Below, piece by piece: positions 16,461-21,866 of a DNA stretch of 40,083 nucleotides (positions within the stretch are counted from its first letter, which is position 1; each line of letters begins with the position of its first letter). The stretch spans positions 1 through 40,083 of the forward strand of contig JAIDKZ010000157.1 in assembly GCA_029051735.1 (NCBI GenBank). The letters run 5' to 3'. The position numbers and the translations under genes are program-made. The notes under the pieces are model-generated. The model worked only from the letters and a program-made list of their open reading frames with translations. It did no database searches and was not told where the DNA came from. This DNA comes from Anaeroplasmataceae bacterium (GTDB lineage Bacteria > Bacillota_I > Bacilli_A > Acholeplasmatales > Anaeroplasmataceae).

Positions 16461-16481
16461 CCTTTTAGCTAGTCTTTTTTT
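16455..16481. terminator. Bidirectional terminator between MocR gene and galU
   Basis: 7-bp stem (16455-16461 with 16468-16474), 6-nt loop, then seven T on the plus strand; on the minus strand it is followed by TCTTTTTG. It covers the last codons of both convergent genes. Confidence 0.82.
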
Positions 16482-17353
16482 ATATAACGCTGATTAATAA
16501 TATTTTGCATATCTTCTGCCAAATCTTTACGTGCAAGTGCAAAATCTACCGTTGCCTCTAAGAATCCTTTCTTAGAACCAATATCATATCTTTTCCCTTT
16601 GATTGCTAGAGAATAAACATTTTCCACTGACATTAAACGTAAAATGGAATCTGTTAATTGTATTTCTCCGCCAGCACCTTTAGTTTGATTTTTTAAGAAA
16701 TGGAAAATTGCTGGAGTTAAAATATATCTTCCTCCAATTGCCAAATTAGAAGGTGCATCCTCTTGTTTAGGTTTTTCAACAACGCTTTCTAATAACAGTA
16801 AAGATGAAGCATTGCTATTTTCAGTTGGTTTACAAATTCCATACTTGCTGACATCTGTATAAGGAACCTCTAATGTTCCTAATATTGTACATCCTGTTTG
16901 GAGATAAGCTTGAATTAACTGCGCAGTAGCAGGTATTTGTTCCCCAACATAGACATCATCTCCTAAAAGTAATGCAAAAGGTTCATCTTGAATAAAATTT
17001 TCTGCACATAATACCGCATGTCCTAACCCTAATTGTTCATGTTGGTAACAAAATTCTACTTTAATTTGCTTTGGTAATGCTTCAATGATATCTAATTCTT
17101 GTTGTTTATTTTTTTCTAGAAGAAATTTCTCTAAAACTAAATTATGACCAAAATGAGTTTTAATGCATTCTTTTTCTGTATTTAAAATAATAAGAATTTC
17201 TTCTATACCACTTTCCATTGCTTCCCTAACAATGTACTCAATAGTAGGTATATCTACTAAAGGCAACATTTCCTTTGGTACTGCCTTAGTAAAAGGGAGA
17301 AATCTTGTCCCAAATCCAGCTGCTGGAATCACAGCCTTTTTAACTTTTTTCAT
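16469..17353 (-). CDS. galU: UTP-glucose-1-phosphate uridylyltransferase
   Basis: Makes UDP-glucose from UTP and glucose-1-phosphate for cell-envelope glycans and glycolipids. The nucleotidyltransferase signature AVIPAAGFGTRFLPFTKAVPKEMLPLVD is at the N-terminus, with GLGHAVLCAE, ALLLGDDV and VEKPK motifs following; 294 aa is typical. Start: the ATG at 17353 lies 9 nt from AAAAGGAG, while the ATG at 17359 is only 3 nt from it. 15 nt downstream of the membrane protein at 17369-18856, probably co-transcribed. Confidence 0.95.
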   Translation of the reverse strand: MKKVKKAVIPAAGFGTRFLPFTKAVPKEMLPLVDIPTIEYIVREAMESGIEEILIILNTEKECIKTHFGHNLVLEKFLLEKNKQQELDIIEALPKQIKVEFCYQHEQLGLGHAVLCAENFIQDEPFALLLGDDVYVGEQIPATAQLIQAYLQTGCTILGTLEVPYTDVSKYGICKPTENSNASSLLLLESVVEKPKQEDAPSNLAIGGRYILTPAIFHFLKNQTKGAGGEIQLTDSILRLMSVENVYSLAIKGKRYDIGSKKGFLEATVDFALARKDLAEDMQNIINQRYIKKD

Positions 17354-17368
17354 AAGCATGAACTCCTT

Positions 17369-18856
17369 TTATTCTGCTGATTTTTTTTGTTCAGTAGACT
17401 TCGTTTTTGATGTGGTTGATTTTGTTGCAGTAGATTTCTTCGCAGTTGTAGTTTTAGAAGCAGCCGTAGGTGATTTCTTTACAGTTGTAGACTTTTTAGC
17501 AACAGTAGTCTTTTTCTTTGGAGCAGGTTTTGTTTCTTCTTCTAATGTTTGATTGCTAGTTTTAGAAGAATCACTATCTACTTGAGCGGGCTTGCTAATC
17601 TTCTGCTCTTCTGCTATAGGTTCTTCAACAAGCTCTTTTGTATTTTCTTCAGAAAGAGACTCTACAATAGTAGGTTCTTCTACTAGGTCATCCTCTTTAT
17701 CTTTGATCTTATGTTCTGCTTGAATCACCTCATGTGCAGTAACAATTTCTAAAGTTTCATCTACTGTTGTATCAGGTAATACCTCTGGTTCCTTTTCTTT
17801 TTCACTTACAGATTTTGGACCACGATTTTGATTAATTTTAACTTTCTTACCATTAATAATAATTTCATCCTTAGGGGTTTTATAATCTTTATAACTACTT
17901 CTAGAAAATAGTGCCTTAAGTCCTCTAAAATGGAATAATAAAATGTATAAGAATGCAATAAAAATAACATACAATGCTTCCATACCAATGGTCTTCCAAA
18001 CTAAAGAGCTAGGCAATAACTCATTGTTTGTATAGTGTATTGTATATGGAGTGTTTTTTAAATACTCTGAATAGAATGTGTTGAACTCATCTTGAGCTGC
18101 TTTCTTTTCTTCCTTCGTTTCAGCATTTGCAAAACGATTAGAACAATCAGCATATTTTTTTATTAATTCCTGATTGCTTTGATCTATAAAGAAAGGCTGG
18201 GAAAAGTCTAATGCTAAATCATTATATGAAGCCACACTGATGCCTTCACTATCTATAATGGTAAAAGATGTAATATCACCATTTATTTTGTTTGAAATAA
18301 ATTCTGACATTGACTTACTTAATGCAAAACTGTAATAACCCCAATTGTTAAAAGTTGAACTATTTCTTGTTTTATTTAAGATTGCTTCTTCTTTTGTTGT
18401 AGGAGCAGCCTTATAAAATTGAGAATTGTAATCTCCATCAACAATAAAATAATAAGTATAACTGCTTTGATCATTACTAAATGTCACACCCATATAATTT
18501 TTAGAGTTTACATCACTATATGTAAATTTTGGATTGAAAATGTAAAAATAGTAAGCCTCTTCTAATAAAGATTCATTGATTGTGTTATTCGCACTTGGAG
18601 TATAACTTATATCCTGTTGTAATAATCCTGAATAAACTTTCAATTCCATTTTATCTGTTCCATCATCTGTAATTAAAGACTCATCATTAAAACATAATGC
18701 ATCAGAAATTCTTGGAATTTCTTCATATCGTTCTTCTTTTATTGCCTTTGTCACTAAATCTGAAATATGATTCACTTGGTTAGAAATATATCCCACCAAG
18801 AATATTATAATTCCAAAAATTATTGCAATACCTATATATAAAACTTTTTTCCACAT
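17369..18856 (-). CDS. Bitopic membrane protein with histone-H1-like basic tail
   Basis: 495 aa, family not recognised. A hydrophobic helix at about residues 4-25 is followed by an extracellular domain of about 260 residues (rich in Tyr/Ser/Asn, with VTFSNDQSSYTYYFIVDGDY), and a second helix at about 290-312 (ALYVIFIAFLYILLFHF). By the positive-inside rule both ends are cytoplasmic. The C-terminal 180 residues are disordered: first acidic Glu/Pro-rich (VEEPTIVESLSEENTKEL), then about 60 residues of Lys/Ala/Thr/Ser repeats (KKKTTVAKKSTTVKK, TTTAKKSTATK), like histone H1 or bacterial Hc1/AlgP-type tails that bind nucleic acid. Same transcript as galU, own promoter upstream. Confidence 0.82.
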   Translation of the reverse strand: MWKKVLYIGIAIIFGIIIFLVGYISNQVNHISDLVTKAIKEERYEEIPRISDALCFNDESLITDDGTDKMELKVYSGLLQQDISYTPSANNTINESLLEEAYYFYIFNPKFTYSDVNSKNYMGVTFSNDQSSYTYYFIVDGDYNSQFYKAAPTTKEEAILNKTRNSSTFNNWGYYSFALSKSMSEFISNKINGDITSFTIIDSEGISVASYNDLALDFSQPFFIDQSNQELIKKYADCSNRFANAETKEEKKAAQDEFNTFYSEYLKNTPYTIHYTNNELLPSSLVWKTIGMEALYVIFIAFLYILLFHFRGLKALFSRSSYKDYKTPKDEIIINGKKVKINQNRGPKSVSEKEKEPEVLPDTTVDETLEIVTAHEVIQAEHKIKDKEDDLVEEPTIVESLSEENTKELVEEPIAEEQKISKPAQVDSDSSKTSNQTLEEETKPAPKKKTTVAKKSTTVKKSPTAASKTTTAKKSTATKSTTSKTKSTEQKKSAE

Positions 18857-18995: not shown

Positions 18996-19072
18996 GGCGC
19001 ACATGGTGAAGTGGTTAACACAGCGGATTGTGGCTCCGCCATGCGCAGGTTCGATCCCTGTTGTGCGCCCCA
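18996..19072 (+). tRNA. tRNA-His (GTG anticodon)
   Basis: Complete cloverleaf: acceptor starting at the extra G(-1) typical of tRNA-His, which pairs with C73; D arm GTGAAGTGGTTAACAC; anticodon stem GCGGA/TCCGC with loop TTGTGGC (anticodon GTG); T arm GCAGG-TTCGATC-CCTGT; CCA encoded at 19070-19072. Single-gene transcript with its own promoter and terminator. Confidence 0.97.
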
Positions 19073-19163: not shown

Positions 19164-21866
19164 CTATAAATACATTTCTACCCATTCATTATTACTATTT
19201 CTTATATAAAAATGACTTGCATAATTCATTGGATTGGCAATAGAGCCATCAAATAAAATCTTATACCAATCCTCTACTGTTCCTTCATAATAGACATTTG
19301 TCAGATTAGAACAACCATAAAATGAATTAAAACCTATATTTTTTACACTTTTTGATATGGTGATACTTGTAAGACTACTGCATTTATTAAAAGCTGAATT
19401 GCCTATACTCGTTACACTTTCTGGTATGATGACACTTACAAGTCTACTGCAGTTTTCAAAAGCTGAATTGCCTATGCTTGTGATATTTTTTGGTAGGATG
19501 ACACTTATGAGTCTACTGCAGTTTTCAAAAGCTGAACTGCCTATACTTGTAACACTTTCTGGTAGAGTGATATTTGTAAGACTACTGCAATTTTTAAAAG
19601 TTGCATTTCCTATGCTTGTGACATTTTTTGGTAGGATGATATTTACAAGATTATTGCAGTTTTCAAAAGCTGAATCGCCTATGCTTGTGACACTTTCTGG
19701 TAGAGTGATATTTACAAGATTACTACACAACCAGAAAGCTGAATTGCCTATACTTATTACACTTTCTGGTATTGATAGTGTTGTGACATTCCTAAATCCT
19801 AAAAATTGATACGATCCAATTGTTGTGACTCCATCTGGTATCTTTATACTTGTTACTTCTTCCCAGTCTTTATTTGTATTTCTCATATAAAAATGACTTG
19901 CATAGTTCATCGGATTAGAAGTAGAACTACCAAATGATATGTTACACCAATCCTCTATTGTTCCCTCATAATAGACTTCTGTTAAACTAAAACATTTGTC
20001 AAAAGACCAATTTTCTATACTTGTTACACTTTCTGGTATTGATAGTGATGCAACATTCCCAAATCCCAAAAATTGATACGATCCAATTGTTGTGACTCCA
20101 TCTGGTATCTTTATACTTGTTACTTCTTCCCAGTCTTTATTTGTATTTCTCATATAAAAATGACTTGCATAGTTCATTGGATTAGAAGTATTACTGCCAA
20201 ATGATATGTTACACCAATCCTCTATTGTTCCCTCATAAAATACATTAGTTAAATTACTAGTGCCATTAAAAAGATTCCACTCCATAAATCTTACACTTTT
20301 TGGTATAACGATATTTTTTAAATTATTACAGTTTTCAAAAGCTGAATATGATAGTGATGTCACACTTTCTGGAATAATTATATTATTAATGTCTTTATCT
20401 TTAAAAACATCTCTAGCAATTTCAACTACCTCTTTATTTTCAATTAATTTAGGTATGATACATGTTTCTGAATTTCCAACATACTTAGTAATTACAATTT
20501 TTTGGTTTCTCTCTATATATTCAAAATCATCTTTTGAATTCTCAATATAATCAAAACTTCCTATAATTTCATTTTTATTTTCAAAACCAAAGCATGAATA
20601 ATCAGCTACTAAATGAATTTTAAAATTTAACATTTTATTTAAATTATTTATGATAACATTATGATAAGAATTTGACATCTTGTCAGTTAAATCTATCGTT
20701 TGAATTAGTTCATTATCCATATTTAAAATATTACATTTTAATGCTGTTAGAAAAGAATAACTATCTAATATATTATAATCAAAACTAACAACATCATTCT
20801 TAGTTGAAACATTAGTAATTGTAGCAGTAGGTTTAATCTCAAACGTATTTGTCGTAATCATATAATTCGCTAATGTTTCATTTCTAAATATACCAATTGG
20901 TGTCTTATAAGTAGCAATAACACTTAAGGTATAGAACGAATCTGGATATAAAAGACTGAATTTACACCCCTCATTTTTTCCTAATGCTAATTCATCTTCC
21001 CACTTAAGTTCTGATACAATATTCTCCTTTTTATCTATTAAAACTACTGCTAAATCAATTAAAAAATCAAATTCATCAATTAAAGTTAAATCAAATGTTA
21101 CCACATCTTTAGTCAAAAAAACATTAGAAAAACTAGCAGCAGGAAGATAAGTATAGGACCCCGTATGAAACGTCTTCTTATCTAAAGGCAACTCTTCATA
21201 TTTTTTTTCATAAAAATCTTCCTTATAGGTAAATGTTGCACATAATAATAATTCATAACTGCAATTTGGTGGAAGAGATCCAAACTCAAAGTCATAATTC
21301 GTTCCTAGATGCAATCCATCTTGCATACTTAATGAGTAAATGATTTGATTCTTTTGCTTTAAATAAATTCTTAGATCTGTCACAATTTTATTTGTATCAT
21401 CAAATGTAGCATTGAATTTGACCTTGGCTTTCTCTAAAAATAAATCAGATATATAGCCTGACACACCTGTGTTATTTTCTGTAGTCGTAAAATTGTAGGT
21501 ATATGCCAATGCGTTTTTTTTCTTGTTTGCTCCTACCCAATAATCCAAATAGAAATCTATTCTATATTTTGTTTTTGAATCTAGTGCATAAAACATAATA
21601 TTCTCTGTTATTCCAACTTTTTGAATACCATCTTCTGAAGAAAGAGTTTCTATTAATTCTGTTCCACTATAAAGATTAATAAAAACTTCCTTAATTAAAA
21701 CCTCTTCTGGTTCAACAACTTTGATATCAAATTTTATAGAAGAAAAATCTATTTCTGGACTAAATATATATATTTTTGGTTCAGTCGCTTTACTGATACA
21801 GGAAGATAAATAGCTTAAGCCAAAAATCATTACAATAAGAGAAAAAATCAATCTTAATTTTTTCAT
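19164..21866 (-). CDS. BspA-type leucine-rich-repeat lipoprotein
   Basis: 900 aa. The signal peptide ends in lipobox LSSC (about C23), so it is probably anchored on the cell surface. Residues of about 30-445 hold four repeats of about 100 residues that look Ig/Fn3-like (for example ATFSNVFLTKDVVTFDLTL and ATITNVSTKNDVVSFDYNI). From about residue 460 there are 23-residue BspA-type leucine-rich repeats (LRR_5: IPESVTSIGNSAFENCS...). Two units of 89 residues (about 542-630 and 631-719) are nearly identical, and a diverged third copy of the same block (YYEGTVEDWY...PMNYASHFYIRN) ends the protein. Such proteins are often host- or matrix-binding adhesins; ligand unknown. AAAGGAGG precedes the ATG. 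Confidence 0.88.
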   Translation of the reverse strand: MKKLRLIFSLIVMIFGLSYLSSCISKATEPKIYIFSPEIDFSSIKFDIKVVEPEEVLIKEVFINLYSGTELIETLSSEDGIQKVGITENIMFYALDSKTKYRIDFYLDYWVGANKKKNALAYTYNFTTTENNTGVSGYISDLFLEKAKVKFNATFDDTNKIVTDLRIYLKQKNQIIYSLSMQDGLHLGTNYDFEFGSLPPNCSYELLLCATFTYKEDFYEKKYEELPLDKKTFHTGSYTYLPAASFSNVFLTKDVVTFDLTLIDEFDFLIDLAVVLIDKKENIVSELKWEDELALGKNEGCKFSLLYPDSFYTLSVIATYKTPIGIFRNETLANYMITTNTFEIKPTATITNVSTKNDVVSFDYNILDSYSFLTALKCNILNMDNELIQTIDLTDKMSNSYHNVIINNLNKMLNFKIHLVADYSCFGFENKNEIIGSFDYIENSKDDFEYIERNQKIVITKYVGNSETCIIPKLIENKEVVEIARDVFKDKDINNIIIPESVTSLSYSAFENCNNLKNIVIPKSVRFMEWNLFNGTSNLTNVFYEGTIEDWCNISFGSNTSNPMNYASHFYMRNTNKDWEEVTSIKIPDGVTTIGSYQFLGFGNVASLSIPESVTSIENWSFDKCFSLTEVYYEGTIEDWCNISFGSSTSNPMNYASHFYMRNTNKDWEEVTSIKIPDGVTTIGSYQFLGFRNVTTLSIPESVISIGNSAFWLCSNLVNITLPESVTSIGDSAFENCNNLVNIILPKNVTSIGNATFKNCSSLTNITLPESVTSIGSSAFENCSRLISVILPKNITSIGNSAFENCSRLVSVIIPESVTSIGNSAFNKCSSLTSITISKSVKNIGFNSFYGCSNLTNVYYEGTVEDWYKILFDGSIANPMNYASHFYIRNSNNEWVEMYL
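19330..19800 (-). repeat. 69-bp LRR coding repeats
   Basis: About seven imperfect tandem units of 69 bp (23 codons), each containing a variant of AAGCTGAATTGCCTATGCTT on the plus strand. They encode consecutive leucine-rich repeats of the lipoprotein. Confidence 0.82.
19750..20242 (-). repeat. Tandem duplication of a 267-bp coding unit
   Basis: The stretch 19750-19975 recurs at 20017-20242 with an exact offset of 267 bp. From 19801 to about 19960 the two copies differ at only a few positions. In frame (89 codons), so it adds one WCNISFG...MNYASHFYMRN block plus one leucine-rich repeat. Confidence 0.88.

Follow-up and report, generated by a model that had tools for sequence, protein, structure and literature searches.

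A lysine-rich, histone H1-like tail as an accessory and recurrent low-complexity module on a two-pass membrane protein of the Anaeroplasmataceae

A membrane protein that carries a histone H1-like tail next to galU raises the question of whether such a tail is a defining part of the protein, and of what it might bind. The window, i.e., the whole stretch of 40,083 nucleotides that was analysed here, comes from a bacterium of the family Anaeroplasmataceae and contains one such gene, the parts of which are as follows:

17369..18856, minus strand: whole open reading frame, 495 aa, two-TM membrane protein (open frame; single copy in the genome)
18785..18844, minus strand: TM helix 1, residues 5-24, N terminus predicted inside (hydropathy; AlphaFold helix 2-40)
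18008..18784, minus strand: extracellular domain, residues 25-283, about 260 residues (confident model; without known structural match)
17930..18007, minus strand: TM helix 2, residues 284-309 (hydropathy and AlphaFold model)
17801..17929, minus strand: juxtamembrane basic segment, residues 310-352, with a conserved FSR..YK motif (sequence and homologue comparison)
17726..17779, minus strand: conserved cytosolic motif LPDTTVDETLEIVTAHEV, residues 360-377, PDTxxDxxLExVTA (homologue comparison)
17537..17800, minus strand: acidic disordered block, residues 353-440, net charge -18 (composition; disorder from the model)
17372..17536, minus strand: Lys/Thr/Ser/Ala basic tail, residues 441-495, net charge +13, predicted disordered (composition and model)

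Two TM segments are found in all 19 aligned homologues, in agreement with the original prediction of a membrane protein, and the target, a two-pass protein encoded in one copy, belongs to an undescribed family centred on the Anaeroplasmataceae. The members of this family share a layout in which a conserved outer domain of about 260 residues is flanked by two TM helices. A homologue is present in each of the genus members that were searched (11 of 11) and in the majority of genomes from the taxonomic family, outside of which the target gives weak matches only. In a scan of the genome collection with the genus alignment, the homologues from named genomes belonged to the Anaeroplasmataceae and to uncultured Mollicutes, including Anaeroplasma bactoclasticum ATCC 27112. 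With respect to known families, neither Pfam nor NCBIfam gave a match above the cut-off, nor did a PDB sequence-profile search. The outer domain and TM helices are modelled by AlphaFold with a mean pLDDT of 88 (from 15 sequences), and a fold search of the outer domain against PDB and viral structures yielded no match at E<=0.001.

As also predicted, the target gene adjoins galU, and this gene order is conserved. Its surroundings comprise the following elements:

16469..17359, minus strand: galU, UTP-glucose-1-phosphate uridylyltransferase (PF00483), 9 bp downstream of the target stop
18997-19072, plus strand: tRNA-His (GTG), between the LRR gene and the target
19164-21866, minus strand: BspA-type leucine-rich-repeat (LRR) protein (PF13306), 900 aa, with a lipoprotein-like N terminus, just upstream

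In 11 of 11 genus members, and also in some members of other genera, galU is the next gene after the target; in ten named relatives the spacing ranges from -14 to +18 bases, and the two genes are probably co-transcribed. In several members of genus g4 its place after the target homologue is taken by a gene for a small multi-TM protein, presumably a component of an ECF-type transporter. Upstream, the tRNA-His gene on the other strand and a terminator-like hairpin lie between the LRR gene and the target, which therefore probably starts its own transcript; with this terminator-like site and tRNA-His intervening, the LRR gene was set aside as part of the finding. On the opposite strand, a 129-aa antisense frame (17163-17552, plus strand) lies over the tail and is apparently a shadow ORF of its K/T codons; such frames are also present in relatives.

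The Lys/Ala/Thr/Ser-rich C-terminal end that had been predicted is real, as 44 of the last 52 residues are K, A, T or S (binomial p about 1e-25, an approximate value since the ORF background includes shadow ORFs). The 55 residues of the tail comprise 16 Lys, 23 Thr/Ser, 7 Ala and 3 acidic residues but not a single Arg. The 88 residues that precede it had been called Glu/Pro-rich, and this description holds only in part: with 27 Asp/Glu the stretch is acidic and rich in Glu, but it has few Pro, the acidic block of the relatives being richer in E/P/V than that of the target. The segregation of charges into blocks is non-random (p 5e-5 for the acidic and p 0.03 for the basic block), although the whole cytosolic part (residues 309-495) is nearly neutral, with a net charge of +2. 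Residues 321-495 are mostly below pLDDT 50 in the full-length model. Moreover, Tandem Repeats Finder detected no tandem repeat in the tail DNA, and the regularity thus lies at the protein level.

Concerning its orientation, K+R residues are concentrated on the N-terminal side of TM1 (mean 1.8) and after TM2 (4.3), as opposed to 0.6 and 1.6 on the outer flanks, in the 19 aligned homologues. Because of this bias, both the N and the C terminus of the target are probably cytosolic, and the earlier placement of the tail inside the cell by the positive-inside rule is supported as a prediction resting on a trend. The alternative idea of an inverted topology with binding of teichoic acids is, in turn, unlikely, given that the tail is predicted inside and that the clade belongs to the Mollicutes, which are wall-less.

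Comparison between relatives reveals that the basic tail is constrained in composition, with a dN/dS of 0.15-0.43 as compared with 0.06-0.18 in the outer domain and the TM helices and a value of 0.10 for the acidic block of one saturated pair, all of these estimates being rough for pairs with dS near or above 1. While positional identity of the tails falls to about 50% in some pairs, the nine tails keep a Lys fraction of 26-32% and a net charge of +8 to +15 and contain one Arg in all. Such a retention of composition in the face of drifting residue order is what would be expected of an electrostatic rather than a sequence-specific function.

The tail is, however, not a hallmark of the family. 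It is present in nine of the 11 genus members, G003 and G008 being without it, and in none of the 17 homologues read from outside the genus. The N-terminal part thus occurs without a basic tail in two genus members and in 17 of 17 outside homologues, an outcome that had been named beforehand as speaking against the original interpretation. The PDTxxDxxLExVTA motif follows the same distribution, as it can be found in all nine tail-bearing homologues but in neither of the two tail-less genus members, and no other protein within the 1.29 Mb of DNA searched contains it. This co-occurrence suggests that motif and tail may have been gained or lost together. In the genus tree, the nodes bearing on one gain with two losses versus two gains of the tail have a support of 50-52%. 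The best explanation is that the outer domain, together with the pair of TM helices, carries the core function and that the basic block is accessory.

Nor is the tail peculiar to the target, since trigger factor, ribosomal protein S2, MscL, MscS and a DUF1508 membrane protein of relatives bear similar stretches. Trigger factor ends in a K/A/T/S tail in seven of the ten genus members with a readable gene and also in G015 from another genus, whereas this tail is absent in G000, G003 and G008. The trigger factor of the target's own species is without it. In G017 (L110) and G011 (L112), the K/A-rich stretch of trigger factor is followed at the end by TVAELKAIAAEKGIKVPAGAKKADILELLK, which resembles a putative SAP or Rho_N-type nucleic-acid-binding motif. 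K/A/T/S endings are further found on S2 and MscL in the genus and on MscS in another genus. MscL and MscS have cytosolic C termini by established topology, and the stretches on these two proteins, S2 and trigger factor are all cytosolic, which independently favours a cytosolic tail in the target. In a one-TM DUF1508 protein, present in the own genome, in the genus and in G021 of another genus, the K/A/T/S stretch instead forms part of the linker that connects the TM helix to the DUF1508 repeats; in G011, G012, G013 and G015 this linker is purely acidic. The copy from the own genome is:

L067:4302-5732 (own genome, contig C31), plus strand: one-TM protein with an acidic, then K/A/T linker and DUF1508 (YegP-like) repeats

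The order of acidic followed by basic residues is also seen in a 1-TM protein in L024 and at the end of an apparently unrelated membrane protein in L041, from another family of the order.

In about 631 kb of the own genome, one other of the 586 ORF frames of at least 150 aa matches the density of the tail and a third comes near, so that there are three such stretches, all on proteins with predicted TM segments, in a survey that covered about 41% by composition and the remainder by codon patterns only. Because of its low complexity, the tail is nearly blind as a protein query in genome searches; degenerate codon patterns perform better, with background matches in short or non-coding frames. A further protein of the own genome, encoded at L196:11572-12879 (plus strand, contig C54), belongs to the S_4TM (SMODS-associating 4TM effector) type, has a K/S/T-rich C-terminal tail and is possibly a defence gene. 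Recent recombination between tails was considered but is unsupported, as blastn of the tail against the own-genome stretches gave other matches of only 15-16 bases, which are insignificant. Taken together, the K/A/T/S pattern is patchy and family-wide rather than genus-specific, and the basic tail is an accessory, recurrent low-complexity module which, given its presence on several unrelated proteins, looks like a reusable electrostatic element and not a special feature of the target.

Several described systems offer comparisons. Tethered to the membrane through a TM helix at its C terminus, the nucleoid protein Rv3852 ('H-NS') of Mycobacterium tuberculosis contains KAAK/PAAK repeats and retains DNA binding (PMC8233713). 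Like Rv3852, the target has a Lys-rich, H1-like segment by composition and a TM anchor with the basic part cytoplasmic by prediction. However, in Rv3852 the TM helix is C-terminal, while the tail of the target lies behind a pair of TM helices and a large outer domain, with an acidic block in between; moreover, this tail is rich in Thr/Ser instead of being built from KAAK/PAAK repeats, and the likeness is one of composition, without a claim of homology. The KPAA tails of AlgP and PhaF bind DNA, and that of AlgP spaces granules (PMC9239181); these C-terminal domains, for which a role in connecting a cellular body with the nucleoid is assumed, resemble the target in being disordered Lys-rich tails on an otherwise unrelated domain, but they belong to granule systems and have regular KPAA repeats, in contrast to a membrane protein with an irregular K/T/S/A composition. 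A positively charged C-terminal tail that faces the ribosome-containing compartment is known from the membrane proteins YidC2 and Oxa1 (PMC10572626), and the target has a basic cytosolic C-terminal tail of this type by predicted topology. In contrast to YidC2/Oxa1, it contains a long acidic block and only two TM segments, and no match to the insertase core was found in Pfam or NCBIfam. Finally, the chlamydial histone H1-like HC2 (PF07382) shares the K/A/T-rich composition, and the trigger-factor tail in L033 and the 1-TM protein in L024 match this profile weakly, below the cut-off; HC2 is, however, a soluble DNA-binding protein, and its profile gave no match to the target at E<=1. Each part of a reading of the tail has a precedent in Rv3852, AlgP/PhaF, Oxa1/YidC2 or K-rich low-complexity regions in general, none of them shown to be homologous to the target.

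From the architecture, topology bias, predicted disorder, distribution, constraint and recurrence established by computation, we infer polyanion binding, tethering and a role for the acidic block. The target would be oriented with its N terminus inside, the domain of about 260 residues outside and its C terminus inside, and the cytosolic tail would form a disordered charged diblock. By non-specific electrostatic attraction, the Lys-rich end of this diblock may tether polyanions of the cell interior such as ribosomes/RNA, DNA or polyphosphate, and the membrane protein would thereby be loosely linked to, or clustered with, the anionic cytoplasm, while the acidic block might be both a spacer and a competitor that keeps binding weak. 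There is precedent in the literature: low-complexity regions rich in Lys show an enrichment among the DNA-binding proteins of prokaryotes, and RNA, too, is bound by poly-Lys (PMC6821194). We give about an even chance to this reading, in which the tail is a generic Lys-rich polyanion tether at the cytosolic face of the membrane and the acidic block serves as a spacer or competitor. Against it can be held that, at a net charge of +2 over the cytosolic part, the two blocks could neutralise each other, and that, since two genus members as well as other genera lack the tail, its role would have to be dispensable or lineage-specific.

More specific partners appear less likely. If the tail were a dedicated nucleoid anchor, binding chromosomal DNA like histone H1 and fixing the nucleoid to the membrane, as has been proposed for Rv3852, its H1-like composition, with Lys but almost no Arg, would fit, and Rv3852, as a membrane-tethered protein with such repeats that still binds DNA, would provide a precedent (PMC8233713); yet trigger factor and S2, whose place of action is the ribosome, have equivalent tails, and the lack of an HC2 match at E<=1 also counts against this option, which we regard as rather unlikely. 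The tails of trigger factor and S2 in the genus would, in turn, be in favour of a tether by which translating ribosomes would be recruited to the membrane, in the way in which the C-terminal extensions of Oxa1/YidC2 bind ribosomes (PMC10572626). This proposal is of similarly low probability, as the trigger factor of the own species is without a tail, the core of the target has no insertase match in Pfam, and similar ends are borne by MscL and MscS, which have no known ribosome role.

Two further readings dispense with nucleic acids altogether, and both seem very unlikely. The acidic and basic blocks might pair, within or between molecules or between different tailed proteins, and thereby lead to clustering or condensates; this would fit the segregation of charges and the recurrence of the acidic-then-basic order in DUF1508 proteins, MscL, the 1-TM protein in L024 and the protein in L041, but the basic tail of trigger factor lacks a comparably long acidic block. 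Likewise, a near-neutral low-complexity extension without any specific role, be it a solubility spacer or the result of compositional drift, would account for the variation of the tail in length and order, its absence in some relatives and the patchy presence of such stretches on unrelated proteins, but is hard to reconcile with a dN/dS below 1, a steady Lys fraction and charge, the near absence of Arg and the lack of a DNA repeat tract. A wider, speculative and probably incorrect reading would be that, in these wall-less bacteria, unrelated membrane proteins and ribosome-associated proteins have repeatedly acquired Lys-rich inner tails, in many cases preceded by an acidic block, and that these tails form a shared electrostatic network coupling membrane, ribosomes and nucleoid in cells that have no wall.

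Independent of the tail, the outer domain, with its confidently modelled fold that has no solved relative, belongs to a protein which is conserved and single-copy, and it therefore points to an envelope function yet to be characterised. For annotation, the recurrence of such tails is a warning that an H1-like tail is not evidence of a histone-like protein. If the tail does bind polyanions, it would represent a simple, repeatedly evolved coupling of membrane proteins to cytoplasmic nucleic acids in wall-less bacteria.
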